IMG/VR virus record: IMGVR_UViG_3300025889_000610
Location: 1-30,691 of that record
DNA length: 30,691 bases
Reading direction: 5' to 3' (one strand)
DNA from: a virus
The notes under the pieces are model-generated. The model was given only the letters and a program-made list of their open reading frames with translations, ran no database searches and was not told the DNA's origin. A program made the translations under genes and the position numbers. Of the stretch, positions 6,588 through 11,621 are shown in pieces. Every line of letters begins with the position of its first letter. Positions within the stretch are counted from its first letter, which is position 1.

Positions 6588-7138
6588 TGGGACGAGATAT
6601 TAAGCACATGAAAAAAGACCTTATGAATCGTCTGGAGGACGATCTAAATGGTCTTATTCAGATTGCGCTCGACGAACTCGCAACCCCGGAAGTTAGCCCT
6701 GTGTTGACGGGCTTTTTTGCTTCTAGCTGGAAAGCAGCTACCAGCCGCCCCCGTGCCCGCGACGAACGAGAAAACTTCAGCCCTTGGGACAAGATCGAAA
6801 CCGTTACTATGCCTAGCGGTTATGTAAAACTCGCTTCAGGCAGCCAACCAATCATCCAGCCCCGCCATTCGGTCCCCCGATTCAAATTGAACCAGTCCGT
6901 ATTTATCGGTAACACCGTTAAATACGCCTCAGACGCACTTGCGTCGCCCAAAAACAACATCTCGAACTATGTGCAGGGCGAATTCAAAGACCTAGTGAAG
7001 TACGTTTTTAGCGATAAGAAGTCCCCAACCCGCATCCGCGTCGCGTCTGGTCAAGGTAGCGGTGGTAGGAATCTGTTCAATCTGTTCTCCCCTGGGACTA
7101 AGTATGTTTCCTATGAGGTTCCGGGAGAATCATCATGA
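6587..7138 (+). CDS. Tail completion / neck protein (HK97 gp10-like)
   Basis: 183 aa. The start overlaps the previous stop (TGATG), indicating coupled translation. The N-terminal half is helical, with the segment S-P-V-L-T-G-F-F-A-S-S-W-K, which matches the 'tG-x-x-x-x-s-W' pattern of gp10-like neck proteins that join the tail to the head. The remainder is basic and rich in Ser, Lys and Gly. The assignment depends on this short motif and on gene order. Base use is slightly more AT-rich at the 5' end than in neighbouring genes. Confidence 0.6.
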   Translation: MGRDIKHMKKDLMNRLEDDLNGLIQIALDELATPEVSPVLTGFFASSWKAATSRPRARDERENFSPWDKIETVTMPSGYVKLASGSQPIIQPRHSVPRFKLNQSVFIGNTVKYASDALASPKNNISNYVQGEFKDLVKYVFSDKKSPTRIRVASGQGSGGRNLFNLFSPGTKYVSYEVPGESS

Positions 7139-7563
7139 CGCTAGTAAACGCTCGCGCTGCCTTCGAGAAAGCAGTTACCGACGCAGTCAGCGATGCCGAC
7201 AGTGCCGTGAGGATGGTGTACGACAACGTCACCTTCACCACCCCTGGAAAAAGCACGAAGTACGTGCTCATGTCGGTCAACTTCAACCGATCCACGCTTC
7301 AAACCCAAGGCGCCGCCCAGGATTATTACTCCGGGGTAATCCAGTGCACTGTCTACGTCCCCAAAAACGCTGGAACGAGCGTGTTGTCTGCAATTAGCGA
7401 GGCCATAATTGACGGCCTGACATCCGTCAACGCAAGCGGCTACACCGATACCTACAGTGCATCCCCTCGTGTGCTCGACATTGTCGGCCCCACCCCGATC
7501 AATACGGAGGACCGCTCGCACTTCATCGGCATCGTTTCTTGCCAATTCACCGCACGGGCGTAG
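7135..7563 (+). CDS. Tail terminator protein
   Basis: 142 aa; ATGA overlap with the previous gene. An N-terminal helix (NARAAFEKAVTDAVSDADS) is followed by beta strands and a central Y-Y-S-G-V-I-Q-C-T-V-Y-V-P segment. A helix with A-I-S-E-A-I-I-D-G-L and a final strand pair (IVSCQFTARA) complete the pattern. This alpha/beta layout and length suit the lambda U-like tail terminator family, which caps the growing tail tube and joins the neck. It precedes the tail chaperone gene as in many siphophages, but the tail tube gene that usually comes between them is at 1112. Confidence 0.7.
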   Translation: MTLVNARAAFEKAVTDAVSDADSAVRMVYDNVTFTTPGKSTKYVLMSVNFNRSTLQTQGAAQDYYSGVIQCTVYVPKNAGTSVLSAISEAIIDGLTSVNASGYTDTYSASPRVLDIVGPTPINTEDRSHFIGIVSCQFTARA

Positions 7564-7591: not shown

Positions 7592-7942
7592 ATGCGTGCT
7601 ACCGAACTGCTCCGTAACAAGTTCGGAGTCAGCCAGCTCTACAAGCACGAAGTCAAAGTCGAAGGCGAAGTCGTGCTGGAGATCTACTGGCACCCCTTGA
7701 CCATCGCCGAGCGCGAGTCAATCCAGAAAAAATCCGACTCCGAGGACGCCAACGACTTTGCTCTGAGCCTAATGATCGAGAAGGCTCTCGACAAAGACGG
7801 CAAGCGCTTGTTTTCCGACGGCGAACGCGCTGCTCTGCGCCGCGATGTCGAAGCCAGCATTCTCCAAGAAATCCAGCTGGCGATGCTGACTTCTGGCGCC
7901 GAAAACAAAGTGGAGGAAGCGAAAGCCGCCCTCAAAAGCTAA
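7592..7942 (+). CDS. Tail assembly chaperone, short form (gpG-like)
   Basis: 116 aa, ATG 7592. This is a charged, mainly helical protein, with the typical chaperone segment E-I-Y-W-x-P-L-T-I-A-E-R-E-x-I, then K-A-L-D-K-D-G-K-R-L-F and a C-terminal helix. Lambda gpG-like chaperones coat the tape measure protein and recruit tail tube subunits, and they are not part of the final virion. The reading frame ends at TAA 7940-7942 just before a second frame that encodes a gpT-like extension, so this is the unshifted product. It lies between the tail terminator and the tape measure gene. Confidence 0.82.
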   Translation: MRATELLRNKFGVSQLYKHEVKVEGEVVLEIYWHPLTIAERESIQKKSDSEDANDFALSLMIEKALDKDGKRLFSDGERAALRRDVEASILQEIQLAMLTSGAENKVEEAKAALKS

Positions 7943-8123
7943 TAAAGACTGGTTCTTCATTTACTTCCTCGCCAAAGAGCTGGGTCAGACAGTGACCCAG
8001 CTTTCTCAGAGCTTGACGACCGAGGAGCTTGTCGGCTGGGCGGCGTTCTTTGAACTCCGCAACGAAGAAGAGCAGAAGTCGATGGATCAGGCCAAGATGA
8101 AAGCCCGTACCGCGTCAAGGTAG
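7592..8123 (+). CDS. Tail assembly chaperone, frameshifted long form (gpGT-like)
   Basis: A second frame is open from 7890 to TAG 8121-8123. It has no convincing start codon near its beginning, and it encodes a gpT-like domain: DWFFIYFLAKELGQTVTQLS, then TTEELVGWAAFFELRNEEE. It lies at +1 relative to the short form. A slip at C-AAA-A (7934-7937), where the Lys anticodon can re-pair perfectly after moving one base forward, would give a 176-aa fusion: 115 residues of the short form plus 61 residues of extension. Translational frameshifts joining G and T equivalents are well documented in tailed phages, usually -1, sometimes +1 or -2. A -2 shift would need poor re-pairing here. Confidence 0.75.
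7934..7937 (+). promoter_or_regulatory. Candidate +1 frameshift slip site
   Basis: The codons read CTC AAA AGC TAA in frame 0. Skipping one A gives CTC AAA (A) GCT AAT AAA GAC TGG. AAA to AAA re-pairing is perfect, and the slip is followed two codons later by the frame-0 stop, which may slow the ribosome. The exact site is inferred. Confidence 0.55.
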
Positions 8124-8162: not shown

Positions 8163-11100
8163 GTGGCTGAATATAACGTCGATATTCTTGTAAAGGCCAA
8201 GATCCAGCAGGCTGAGCGTGCGCTCGACGCGCTAAAGAAGAAGATTGACAGTATATCTAAAAACCCTGTAATAAAAGTAGGCGCACGTGGTATACAAGAC
8301 CTTAAAACATACAGTGGTGCACTTAAAGATTTAGGGCTAAAAGGAGCCGCCGTTCGCGGAGGTTTGGCCGCCGTCACTCTGCAACTTGGCAAGTTTGGGA
8401 ACGTCACAAAAGCGGCTACAGGTTTTGCAGCCACCCTAACAAGTGGGTTGGGCGGCCTTGTTGCCAAGACAACGGCCGTTGCCGCTGGCTGGGGAACTCT
8501 CGGCACTGCAATTGCTGCTTCAGGGCAAGCTTTTAATCTTACCACAAAGGCAACAGCCGGGGTCGAACAAGTTCTTGGGCAAGTACTCGCAACCCTGGGG
8601 CAGCTGCCTGCCACATGGGGAGCTGCTGCGATTGCAGCACTGGCGTTTGCCCCACAAGTTGCAAAAGCCGGGACAGCGCTAAACAATGCCGTTGGAGAAA
8701 AAGCTACAAAATCTATTGCAGCAACAGTACAACAATTTAATAACTTAAACGAGCAAGTTAAATTTACGGCTACATCTTTTCAAGACTTAATTAAAGGTTC
8801 TACACTTAATCAATTAAACGCCCAATTACAGGACGCTAACCGTCAAATAGGAGCGTACCGTTCAAATACTGAAGAAGCGAGAGTATCAGCTCAGCAACTT
8901 CTAGCTGTAACCAAAGCGCAAGTAGCAGAACAACGAGCAATAAATGATTTAGTGCGGCAAACTCGTGGCATAACACAAACAGAACTAGAAGAATCCAAAG
9001 CTATAAAAACTTTGGAGACTAAGCGACGCAAACAAGCTTATTTAACCGAAGAAGCAAATAAGTACAATCTCGAAATTGACGAGTACAACCGTTTAGCGCG
9101 GGAAGCAGCAGAGGTTACTAAAAAGTGGGAACAGAGCCTGAGAGCTGCTAACACGGCCGCTAAAGCAGGTGTTCTAGGCAGCACTAACCAGATTCGTGCG
9201 CGTCTCCAAGAGATGCGTGAAAATCGTCAATCGGCGGAGATTGCACGCCAACGCTCCGCCGTGCTGATGGGTACTTCAGGCGCAATGCAAGGCCCTGGTG
9301 CTCTGGGTGACGTTGCCCGCGCAGAAGCAAACAGGGTAGCGCTGCGAGCGCAAGCTGTGAAATTGCTGGAACAAGAGCGCCAGAAGGCCCAACAAAATAT
9401 CCAGTTAATGCAGAACTGGACCAATGTTCTACGACAGGGACCAGTAATCCTCACGGATATGCAGCGCCTTCGTGCGAAGGAATTGCAGGACAGAAAAGAT
9501 GCCTTTGTAGTTGCTAACAGAGAACTACAACTTGAAATTAAATTGCGAAATTTACAAGAAGGACGAACGGCACGCGCAGGTTTAAGAAAGTCTGCTCAGG
9601 GACGTCTTAGTTCTGCAGCAATCGGTGGTGCATTCCCGCTGTTGTTTGGTCAAAGCGGTTTAGCAGCCGCAGGCGGCGCTATCGGCGGTTTGCTTGGTGG
9701 CGCGGGTGGTGGTTTTGCAGGTTCTTTGGTTGGCACCTTAATCGGTGATCTAATCAACGTTAAAAACGGCATCAAAGAGCTAGCCCGAGAAATGGGCTTA
9801 GGTGCCGAGGGCACCAAGCTTTTAGGTCAAGCATTTAGACAGGCTGGGGCAGACGCCGATAAATTCCAAGCAGCAGTCCAGAACATCAGAGGCGTCGGTT
9901 TTGTTGATCGTGACGAACTAACAGTTATCCAGCTTGCTTCAAGACTTACAGAAGACTACGGCGGCAAGGTAGATAGGCTTTCTCAAGCCTACGCAAACAT
10001 TGCAAGTACGGGTAAATCTAGCTTGGCAGATATAAATAAGTTTACTGCTCAAGGCGTCCCTATCCTTAAGCAACTAGAGAAAAACCTCGGCGTAAATCGT
10101 CAAGAACTACTCAAACTAGCTAAAGATGGAAAAATCAGCGCTCAACAAGTATCCGATGCACTTATAGACATTGCCAATGCCGGAAGAGACTCCAGCTTGG
10201 AAACCGAAGATGCTTGGTACGATTCTTGGAAGAGTATCAAGGATAGTGCCAACAAATCTTTGAACGCAATAAAAGTAATTTTGCGACCTTTTGTATCTGA
10301 CATTAAAAAAGTTGCCTTGAAGATCATGGAGTACTTTGCTGAGGTGTACAAGTTTGTAGTTGAGGGAGCTGTAAAAGCTGCAACTGGAATGACCCGGGCC
10401 TTTGCCGGAGGCTTTGAGGGGCTAGCGGACAAACTTACGGAGCTAGACAAGCTCCCTGGTGTACGACAGTTTCTCGGTGGGGATGGATTACTGCAAGATG
10501 CAAAACGCCTTAGAGCTGCCGCTAAAGATTTTCGAGGCAGTGCTGACGAGTTAGAAGGGGTGCTAAAAACCCCAGAGCTTGAGCCACTTGCCAAGCCGAC
10601 ACTACCCGGCCTCCAAGAACTCTCCAGAGACAAAACCACAACCAAAAAAGGACGCGAAAGCCAGTTGGCACAACTGCAAAATGCCTACATTTTGCTCGTG
10701 GAGCAGACAGCTGTCCAAAATGAACTGTACGCCGCACAACTCAAAGGCAACGAAGTTGCTGCCGTTCAACTGAACAAAAAACTAAAACTTCTTGAAATCA
10801 GCAAACAAGAAAGAGACGTTAATTTAGAACGCATACCTGCCCAAGAGAAAGCTGTTAAGTTACAAACTTTGCAAGTAGAAAAGTACCGTGCAGAGCTAGA
10901 AGCGCTATACCAAATTAGCGTTATTGAGCAAAAAATTAACGATGCACGTGATGCAGCTTTAGGAGACAGCAATGCGCGTATAAACCAGTTACAAGCAGAA
11001 ATACAAGGACGTGGACGCGACTATGAGCTGACCCAGCGTATTCAAGAGCTTGAAAAAGCCGGTGTTGAGAATGCCGCAGACCAAGCAAATGCAGAGTTCC

Positions 11101-11621
11101 AGCTCTTGGACATTAAAAACCAGCAAATCGAAGCACAGCAACAATTAAATAGCCTTGTAAATCAGCTTGGTACATCTACGACAAAGGTGTTTGAGGACCT
11201 TATTTTTGCGACCGACTCTTGGCGTCAAAGTCTTGCCAATGCTTTGCAGACAATGGCAAGCGCCTTGTTCCGCTTCGGACTCAACACACTTGCCGACGCG
11301 GGAGATCCTGCGGGCCAAGGGGTCGGGCTGTTCAGCATCCTTGCAGGCAGGTTTGGTAAGAGGGCTAACGGCGGACCCGTAACTTCCGGCTCGCCTTACC
11401 TCGTCGGTGAGCGCGGCCCGGAGCTGTTTGTCCCTGGCGCCAGCGGCAACATCGTTCCGAACAACGCGATGGGCAGCAGCAACATCGTCGTTAATGTGGA
11501 TGCAACCGGATCCAGTGTCCAAGGCAATGGGGACGAGTCCAAGCGTCTGGGCGAGGCCATCGGCATTGCCATCCGCCAAGAGCTGATCAAACAGAAACGT
11601 CCCGGAGGCTTGCTCGCGTAA
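8163..11621 (+). CDS. Tape measure protein
   Basis: 1152 aa from GTG 8163. Its length sets tail length, and it is ejected ahead of the DNA. The N-terminus is helical (ILVKAKIQQAERALDALKKK). Hydrophobic Ala/Gly-rich stretches occur near residues 80-190. Long coiled coils cover about residues 200-460 and 820-1010. A Gly-rich hydrophobic region near residues 480-535 could insert in the host membrane, followed by a segment with the tape-measure-domain look (G-x-D-A-D-K-F-Q-A, FTAQGVPILKQLEKNLGVNR). The C-terminal GERGPELFVPGASG motif is characteristic of phage tape measure proteins. Much of the middle uses A/T-ending codons, unlike the flanking genes, while the last ~350 bp returns to GC-rich codons, suggesting a mosaic gene. 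Confidence 0.93.
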   Translation: MAEYNVDILVKAKIQQAERALDALKKKIDSISKNPVIKVGARGIQDLKTYSGALKDLGLKGAAVRGGLAAVTLQLGKFGNVTKAATGFAATLTSGLGGLVAKTTAVAAGWGTLGTAIAASGQAFNLTTKATAGVEQVLGQVLATLGQLPATWGAAAIAALAFAPQVAKAGTALNNAVGEKATKSIAATVQQFNNLNEQVKFTATSFQDLIKGSTLNQLNAQLQDANRQIGAYRSNTEEARVSAQQLLAVTKAQVAEQRAINDLVRQTRGITQTELEESKAIKTLETKRRKQAYLTEEANKYNLEIDEYNRLAREAAEVTKKWEQSLRAANTAAKAGVLGSTNQIRARLQEMRENRQSAEIARQRSAVLMGTSGAMQGPGALGDVARAEANRVALRAQAVKLLEQERQKAQQNIQLMQNWTNVLRQGPVILTDMQRLRAKELQDRKDAFVVANRELQLEIKLRNLQEGRTARAGLRKSAQGRLSSAAIGGAFPLLFGQSGLAAAGGAIGGLLGGAGGGFAGSLVGTLIGDLINVKNGIKELAREMGLGAEGTKLLGQAFRQAGADADKFQAAVQNIRGVGFVDRDELTVIQLASRLTEDYGGKVDRLSQAYANIASTGKSSLADINKFTAQGVPILKQLEKNLGVNRQELLKLAKDGKISAQQVSDALIDIANAGRDSSLETEDAWYDSWKSIKDSANKSLNAIKVILRPFVSDIKKVALKIMEYFAEVYKFVVEGAVKAATGMTRAFAGGFEGLADKLTELDKLPGVRQFLGGDGLLQDAKRLRAAAKDFRGSADELEGVLKTPELEPLAKPTLPGLQELSRDKTTTKKGRESQLAQLQNAYILLVEQTAVQNELYAAQLKGNEVAAVQLNKKLKLLEISKQERDVNLERIPAQEKAVKLQTLQVEKYRAELEALYQISVIEQKINDARDAALGDSNARINQLQAEIQGRGRDYELTQRIQELEKAGVENAADQANAEFQLLDIKNQQIEAQQQLNSLVNQLGTSTTKVFEDLIFATDSWRQSLANALQTMASALFRFGLNTLADAGDPAGQGVGLFSILAGRFGKRANGGPVTSGSPYLVGERGPELFVPGASGNIVPNNAMGSSNIVVNVDATGSSVQGNGDESKRLGEAIGIAIRQELIKQKRPGGLLA

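Follow-up and report, generated by a model that had tools for sequence, protein, structure and literature searches.

A probable programmed +1 ribosomal frameshift at AAA AGC in a phage tail assembly chaperone family that also uses -1 shifts

The tail assembly chaperone gene of the phage studied here is probably translated into a gpG/gpGT pair by a programmed +1 ribosomal frameshift. We put the probability of this reading, which rests on comparative sequence analysis, at about 0.88. The slip would very probably take place at AAA AGC, in this phage and in hundreds of its relatives. The whole stretch of DNA analysed (30,691 nt, virus record IMGVR_UViG_3300025889_000610, hereafter the window) is a fragment of an aquatic tailed phage, likely with a cyanobacterial host, judging from its named relatives. 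Most ribosomes would read gpG through to its TAA. In a minority, the peptidyl-tRNA-Lys on AAA (7934-7936), with AGC in the A site, would move one base forward and re-pair on the AAA at 7935-7937, a perfect AAA-to-AAA match. The shifted ribosomes would then read GCT AAT AAA GAC TGG and onwards, giving a gpGT of 176 aa whose T part is expected to bring the tail tube protein to a tape measure protein coated with gpG. We infer that the slip happens in cells, at some rate, and that its direction is much likelier to be +1 than -2.

The tail module of the window has the order tail terminator, gpG-like chaperone and tape measure, with gpG directly upstream of the tape measure gene (Table 1). The tail assembly chaperone family phrog_344 is matched by 29 of the 37 gpG members, and the predicted fold of gpG (pLDDT 77) has as its best solved-structure match the HK97 tail assembly chaperone (2OB9, Foldseek probability 1.00, E 0.006, TM about 0.5). 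A Pfam scan of the G and T of the window gave no match, and thus nothing that would place G close to lambda G in sequence; a sequence-profile search of the PDB gave no real match. Taken together, the HK97-like fold, the phrog_344 matches and the place before the tape measure gene support a lambda-like role for gpG and gpGT. The original prediction, made from the window sequence, had followed the logic of the lambda G/GT pair, which is upheld. Lambda gpG/gpGT has the same order before the tape measure gene, the same pair of a short and a long product, a slip shortly before G ends and a T without a start codon. It shifts by -1 at G_GGA_AAG, whereas the window phage would shift by +1 at AAA_AGC, without a heptamer and with a conserved 5' element. 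The tail tube gene of the window is displaced: the major tail protein gene (1112-1534, + strand, phrog_10528, E 3e-19) lies upstream of the portal gene, while cyanophage S-2L has it between the tail terminator and gpG.

Table 1. Positions, in the window, of the putative frameshift and of the neighbouring tail genes.
Feature	Position	Strand	Evidence
Tail terminator protein, upstream neighbour of gpG	7135..7563	+	PF13554 E 1e-6; phrog_179 E 9e-14
gpG-like tail assembly chaperone, frame 0, 116 aa	7592..7942	+	ORF; phrog_20784 E 2e-21; phrog_344 E 7e-6; fold match 2OB9
+1-frame open stretch (T-like domain 7938-8120, stop 8121-8123)	7890..8123	+	protein conserved in 269 loci; third-position bias
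5' element GTG GAG GAA GCG with SD-like GGAGG (7912-7916), probable stimulator	7910..7921	+	near-invariant synonymous sites, 133 relatives
AAA AGC, putative site of the +1 slip; tRNA moves from P-site AAA to the AAA at 7935-7937, then GCT (7938-7940) is read	7934..7939	+	268/268 conservation
Frame-0 TAA of gpG, which shifted ribosomes would escape	7940..7942	+	position variable in relatives
Tape measure protein, expected gpG partner	8163..11621	+	PF20155 E 1e-11; phrog tape measure families

The gpG gene ends in GCC GCC CTC AAA AGC TAA. The +1 frame opens after a TGA at 7887-7889 and runs to 8120, and its overlap with gpG is confined to 7890-7942, as originally described. The T-like domain does lie in this frame, and its lack of a plausible start was borne out: the T frame of the window has no ATG, GTG or TTG upstream of the domain or within its first 15 codons. 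The domain thus lies in a frame other than that of gpG and appears reachable only via a frameshift. Reading GCT after AAA gives a fusion (...AALKANKDWFF...) of 176 aa, the length that had been predicted. T also bears a coding signature in the +1 frame, with 58% of the pairwise differences at third codon positions. The -1 frame of the window closes 53 nt past the frame-0 stop and, with T in +1, the locus does not follow the -1 X_XXY_YYZ scheme. In the annotated relatives examined, T was either absent or called as a separate short ORF. The viral protein D6PII1 in BFVD has 179 aa, a length like that of the GT fusion, and is 77% identical to gpG; it may be a relative fused in frame or the product of a sequencing indel.

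Six IMG/VR scans, together with phage records, yielded 303 distinct loci in which a gpG homologue is present and the junction can be read, and we placed T in each of them by profile searches in all frames. T was in the +1 frame in 269 loci, in the -1 frame in 29 and in frame 0 in none. It went undetected in five, which are truncated contigs or have a T that is too divergent (e.g., HTVC026P). The 269 loci include the window, and the 268 others were used for the motif counts. As a control, the same frame rules placed the T of lambda in -1 with GGGAAAG, as is known. We call clade A the 133 window-like loci and clade B the 69 AT-rich loci resembling MH327491 (L082, L126-L205). MH327491, a single-cell marine virus record with the +1 form, was the only match of the T domain in a tblastn search of phage records. 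A nucleotide search of the window against phage records and a plasmid search using a clade C relative gave no matches, and a scan of a genome collection matched a single bacterial MAG contig (L380). None of the cultured phages searched was of the +1 type.

The proposed slip at AAA-A (7934-7937), with perfect re-pairing of tRNA-Lys, agrees with what is found in the relatives: an in-frame AAA AGN is present inside the frame overlap in all 268 other +1 loci, far more than chance would produce. The A site holds a sense codon throughout, AGC in 260 loci, AGT in six and AGG in two. CAAAAG, the motif whose conservation the original prediction had proposed to check, is indeed part of a strongly conserved site, but the core of this site is AAAAGC and the C at its 5' side varies. 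Nearly all +1 loci have a Leu or Met codon just before AAA, with six Leu codons in use, and clade C mostly has ATG AAA AGC. In clade A (133 loci), we counted synonymous changes as the minimum number of changes on a tree inferred from the other codons, and found 0 for AAA and 1 for AGC. Most neighbouring codons have 13-37 such changes, including 37 for the Leu codon just before AAA, 22 for the Ala codon three positions upstream of it and 21 for the Lys codon four positions upstream. In the genes of this clade AAA makes up about half of the Lys codons and AGC a fifth of the Ser codons. In clade B, AGC is used at 64 of 67 Ser slip sites, as compared with 2% of the Ser codons upstream in the gene. 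In L194 and L196, the slip region reads AAA AGG GAA GAA TAA, with Arg AGG replacing Ser AGC.

The stop codons around the site delimit it further. In 205 of the 268 loci, a +1-frame stop overlaps the last two bases before AAA; since this stop abuts AAA, the T frame cannot be entered earlier. In 117 of those 205 loci a frame-0 stop directly follows AGN, and having both stops adjacent confines the switch to the six bases AAA AGN. Over all +1 loci, the distance from AGN to the frame-0 stop ranges from 0 to 7 codons. AAA AGC is thus kept while the stop position varies, and the signal does not include the frame-0 stop. The slip was said to fall just before the frame-0 TAA, which is true of the window, but this closeness is not conserved.

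These observations bear on four other explanations. A -2 frameshift would enter the same frame, and its product would have one residue more (177 aa); such a shift was put forward for the tail chaperone pair of mycobacteriophage Tweety (PMC2884959). Yet it would leave the P-site tRNA-Lys on TCA, TAA or TGA, a stop codon in 205 of the 268 loci, and a tRNA-Ser moved from AGC to AAA would pair at one position only. An invariant AAA followed by A is, on the other hand, what a +1 slip of tRNA-Lys requires, and we regard -2 as unlikely. A +1 shift driven by slow termination at the TAA, like that of the prfB shifty stop, is very unlikely: even if a stop directly follows AGC in the window and in many relatives, the A site is occupied by AGC when AAA is in the P site, and in many loci of all clades the stop comes 1 to 7 codons further on. 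The SD-like motif also ends 17 nt before AAA, and not 3 nt as in the prfB type. A stop placed anywhere from 0 to 7 codons downstream points to an elongation slip of tRNA-Lys rather than to a shifty stop.

Less probable still is that T is started independently, without any frameshift. The strong SD-like GGAGG upstream speaks for such a start, but the T-frame codons 5-10 nt past it are not start-like and most loci have no ATG, GTG or TTG in the T frame before the conserved domain. An upstream start is excluded in the 205 loci with a T-frame stop directly before AAA. Finally, the frame change might reflect an error of sequencing or assembly, or a decayed T. One base in a short A run would suffice for this in a single sequence, but the frame change recurs across many samples, in 268 further loci, and T is conserved at the protein level, which makes such an origin next to negligible. 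Sequencing error, named in the original prediction as what could overturn it, is excluded by the independent contigs from these samples, by MH327491 and by the MAG contig.

The proposed +1 shift at AAA AGC also seems to involve sequences upstream of the slip. The AAA-A slip originally proposed stands, but the signal appears to extend to the A-site AGC and to a 5' element (Table 1). Codons -8 to -5 of clade A (GTG GAG GAA GCG) have 0, 0, 0, and 4 synonymous changes, and codons -6 to -3 of clade B (GAG GCT AAA GCC) have none across the 69 loci. The strongest anti-SD pairing among 530 scanned positions coincides with the 5' element in both clades. The motif is GGAGG at -22 to -18 in clade A and AAGGNGG at about -30 to -24 in clade B. 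In clades C and D, the SD-like motifs are weaker and are located at about -24 to -18. We infer from this pattern that the element stimulates the slip, perhaps via anti-SD pairing. In published cases, the SD spacing is 3 nt at +1 sites and 9-14 nt at -1 sites (PMC5009743). An element located 17 nt or more away would either obey other spacing rules or have another mode of action. Conservation extends to the C-terminal peptide VEEAKAxLKS, and the nascent peptide may possibly contribute to the shift. As for a 3' stimulator, the sequence downstream of the slip site gave no strong signal of folding, and its synonymous sites are not conserved. In the other genes of clade A, AAA_AGC occurs 38 times for 48 expected, a weak avoidance at most. 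This near lack of avoidance suggests a part for the 5' element in efficiency, and AAA_AGC alone is probably weakly shifty and in need of it. In the conserved GAG GCT AAA GCC of clade B, the GAGG part is SD-like and the rest is not.

Frameshifted G/GT pairs are well established and mostly -1 (PMC5009743). The +1 direction in tail chaperones is not new, having been reported or inferred before. It is called very likely for the G-T pair of HSTV-2 (PMC5009743), and the actinobacteriophage training sites of PMC10885494 comprise 350 forward and 2368 backward shifts. The forward sites in SEA-PHAGES genomes, most of which belong to tail chaperones, and that of HSTV-2, explicitly in a G-T pair, share the +1 direction with the window (PMC10885494, PMC5009743). 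They are mostly annotated sites, for which the text consulted describes no AAA_AGC motif or 5' element. The Listeria phages PSA, A118, and A500 and SPP1 (CCC_UGA, CCC_UAA) also have a +1 P-site slip in structural genes (PMC5009743, PMC6316719). Their slips use Pro codons of the genes for the capsid and the major tail protein, next to a stop in the tail genes, whereas the window has a Lys codon, a sense codon in the A site and a chaperone gene. Ty1 (CUU_AGG_C) and Ty3 (GCG_AGU_U) share with it the forward slip and an A-site codon of the AGN type (PMC5009743). These are yeast elements that depend on a slow A-site codon, whereas AGC is common in the window phage, and the likeness implies no common descent. 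AGC is the commonest Ser codon of the window (42%), so that a simple stall at a rare A-site codon is unsupported there; in clade B genes it is rare.

The +1 direction holds for the window and for the 268 other loci, but it is clade-specific, and close relatives use -1. The cyanophages KBS-S-2A and S-H1 and the Pelagibacter phages HTVC202P and HTVC026P have G and T homologous to those of the +1 loci and would slip at the homologous Lys codon. They differ in having A_AAA_AAC, a -1 shift and a T offset by one base. S-2L has the -1 form with C_CCA_AAG. The correspondence can be seen by comparing KBS-S-2A (junction GTA AAA AAC TAA AAC AGG, T reading KKLKQELKKDN) with the clade C locus L110 (ATG AAA AGC GCT AAA GAT, T reading KALKIELKKDN): the two slip codons are homologous, either of AAC and AGC has given way to the other, and T is offset by one base. 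The gpG tree of 57 representatives, which is short and unrooted and does not distinguish gain from loss of +1, requires at least three changes of direction. A single +1 clade is rejected by the AU test, if modestly (p 0.012). Judged by these junctions, one chaperone family has changed slip direction in evolution, with the same Lys codon serving for +1 or for -1.

The direction of a frameshift is commonly regarded as a fixed property of a gene. In the literature searched, mainly open-access papers, we found no AAA_AGC or AAAAGC frameshift signal, no switch of direction at the same site and no stimulator layout made of a frozen distant 5' element without 3' structure. We see about an even chance that this is a bacterial +1 signal new to the literature, with AAA as its P-site and AGC as its A-site codon, a fixed 5' element and neither stop nor 3' structure, gained or lost several times in alternation with -1 at A_AAA_AAC. 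If so, a single A-site base (AAC or AGC) and a one-base indel would set the direction of the slip. The homologues differ chiefly in the next codon and in one downstream base, and would thus provide a natural experiment on slip direction. The present reading corrects the annotation of these genes; tools based on heptamers or on shifty stops would not look for the AAA_AGC site. Two -1 loci have other slip sequences. One (L120, IMGVR_UViG_3300047275_000126) has CAG GGA AAG TAA, the G_GGA_AAG of lambda, within a -1 group that otherwise has A_AAA_AAC. The other, Prochlorococcus phage MED4-184 (L379), has T in -1 with GCA AAG GAA TCC TAA, without a full heptamer, and probably slips at A_AAG.
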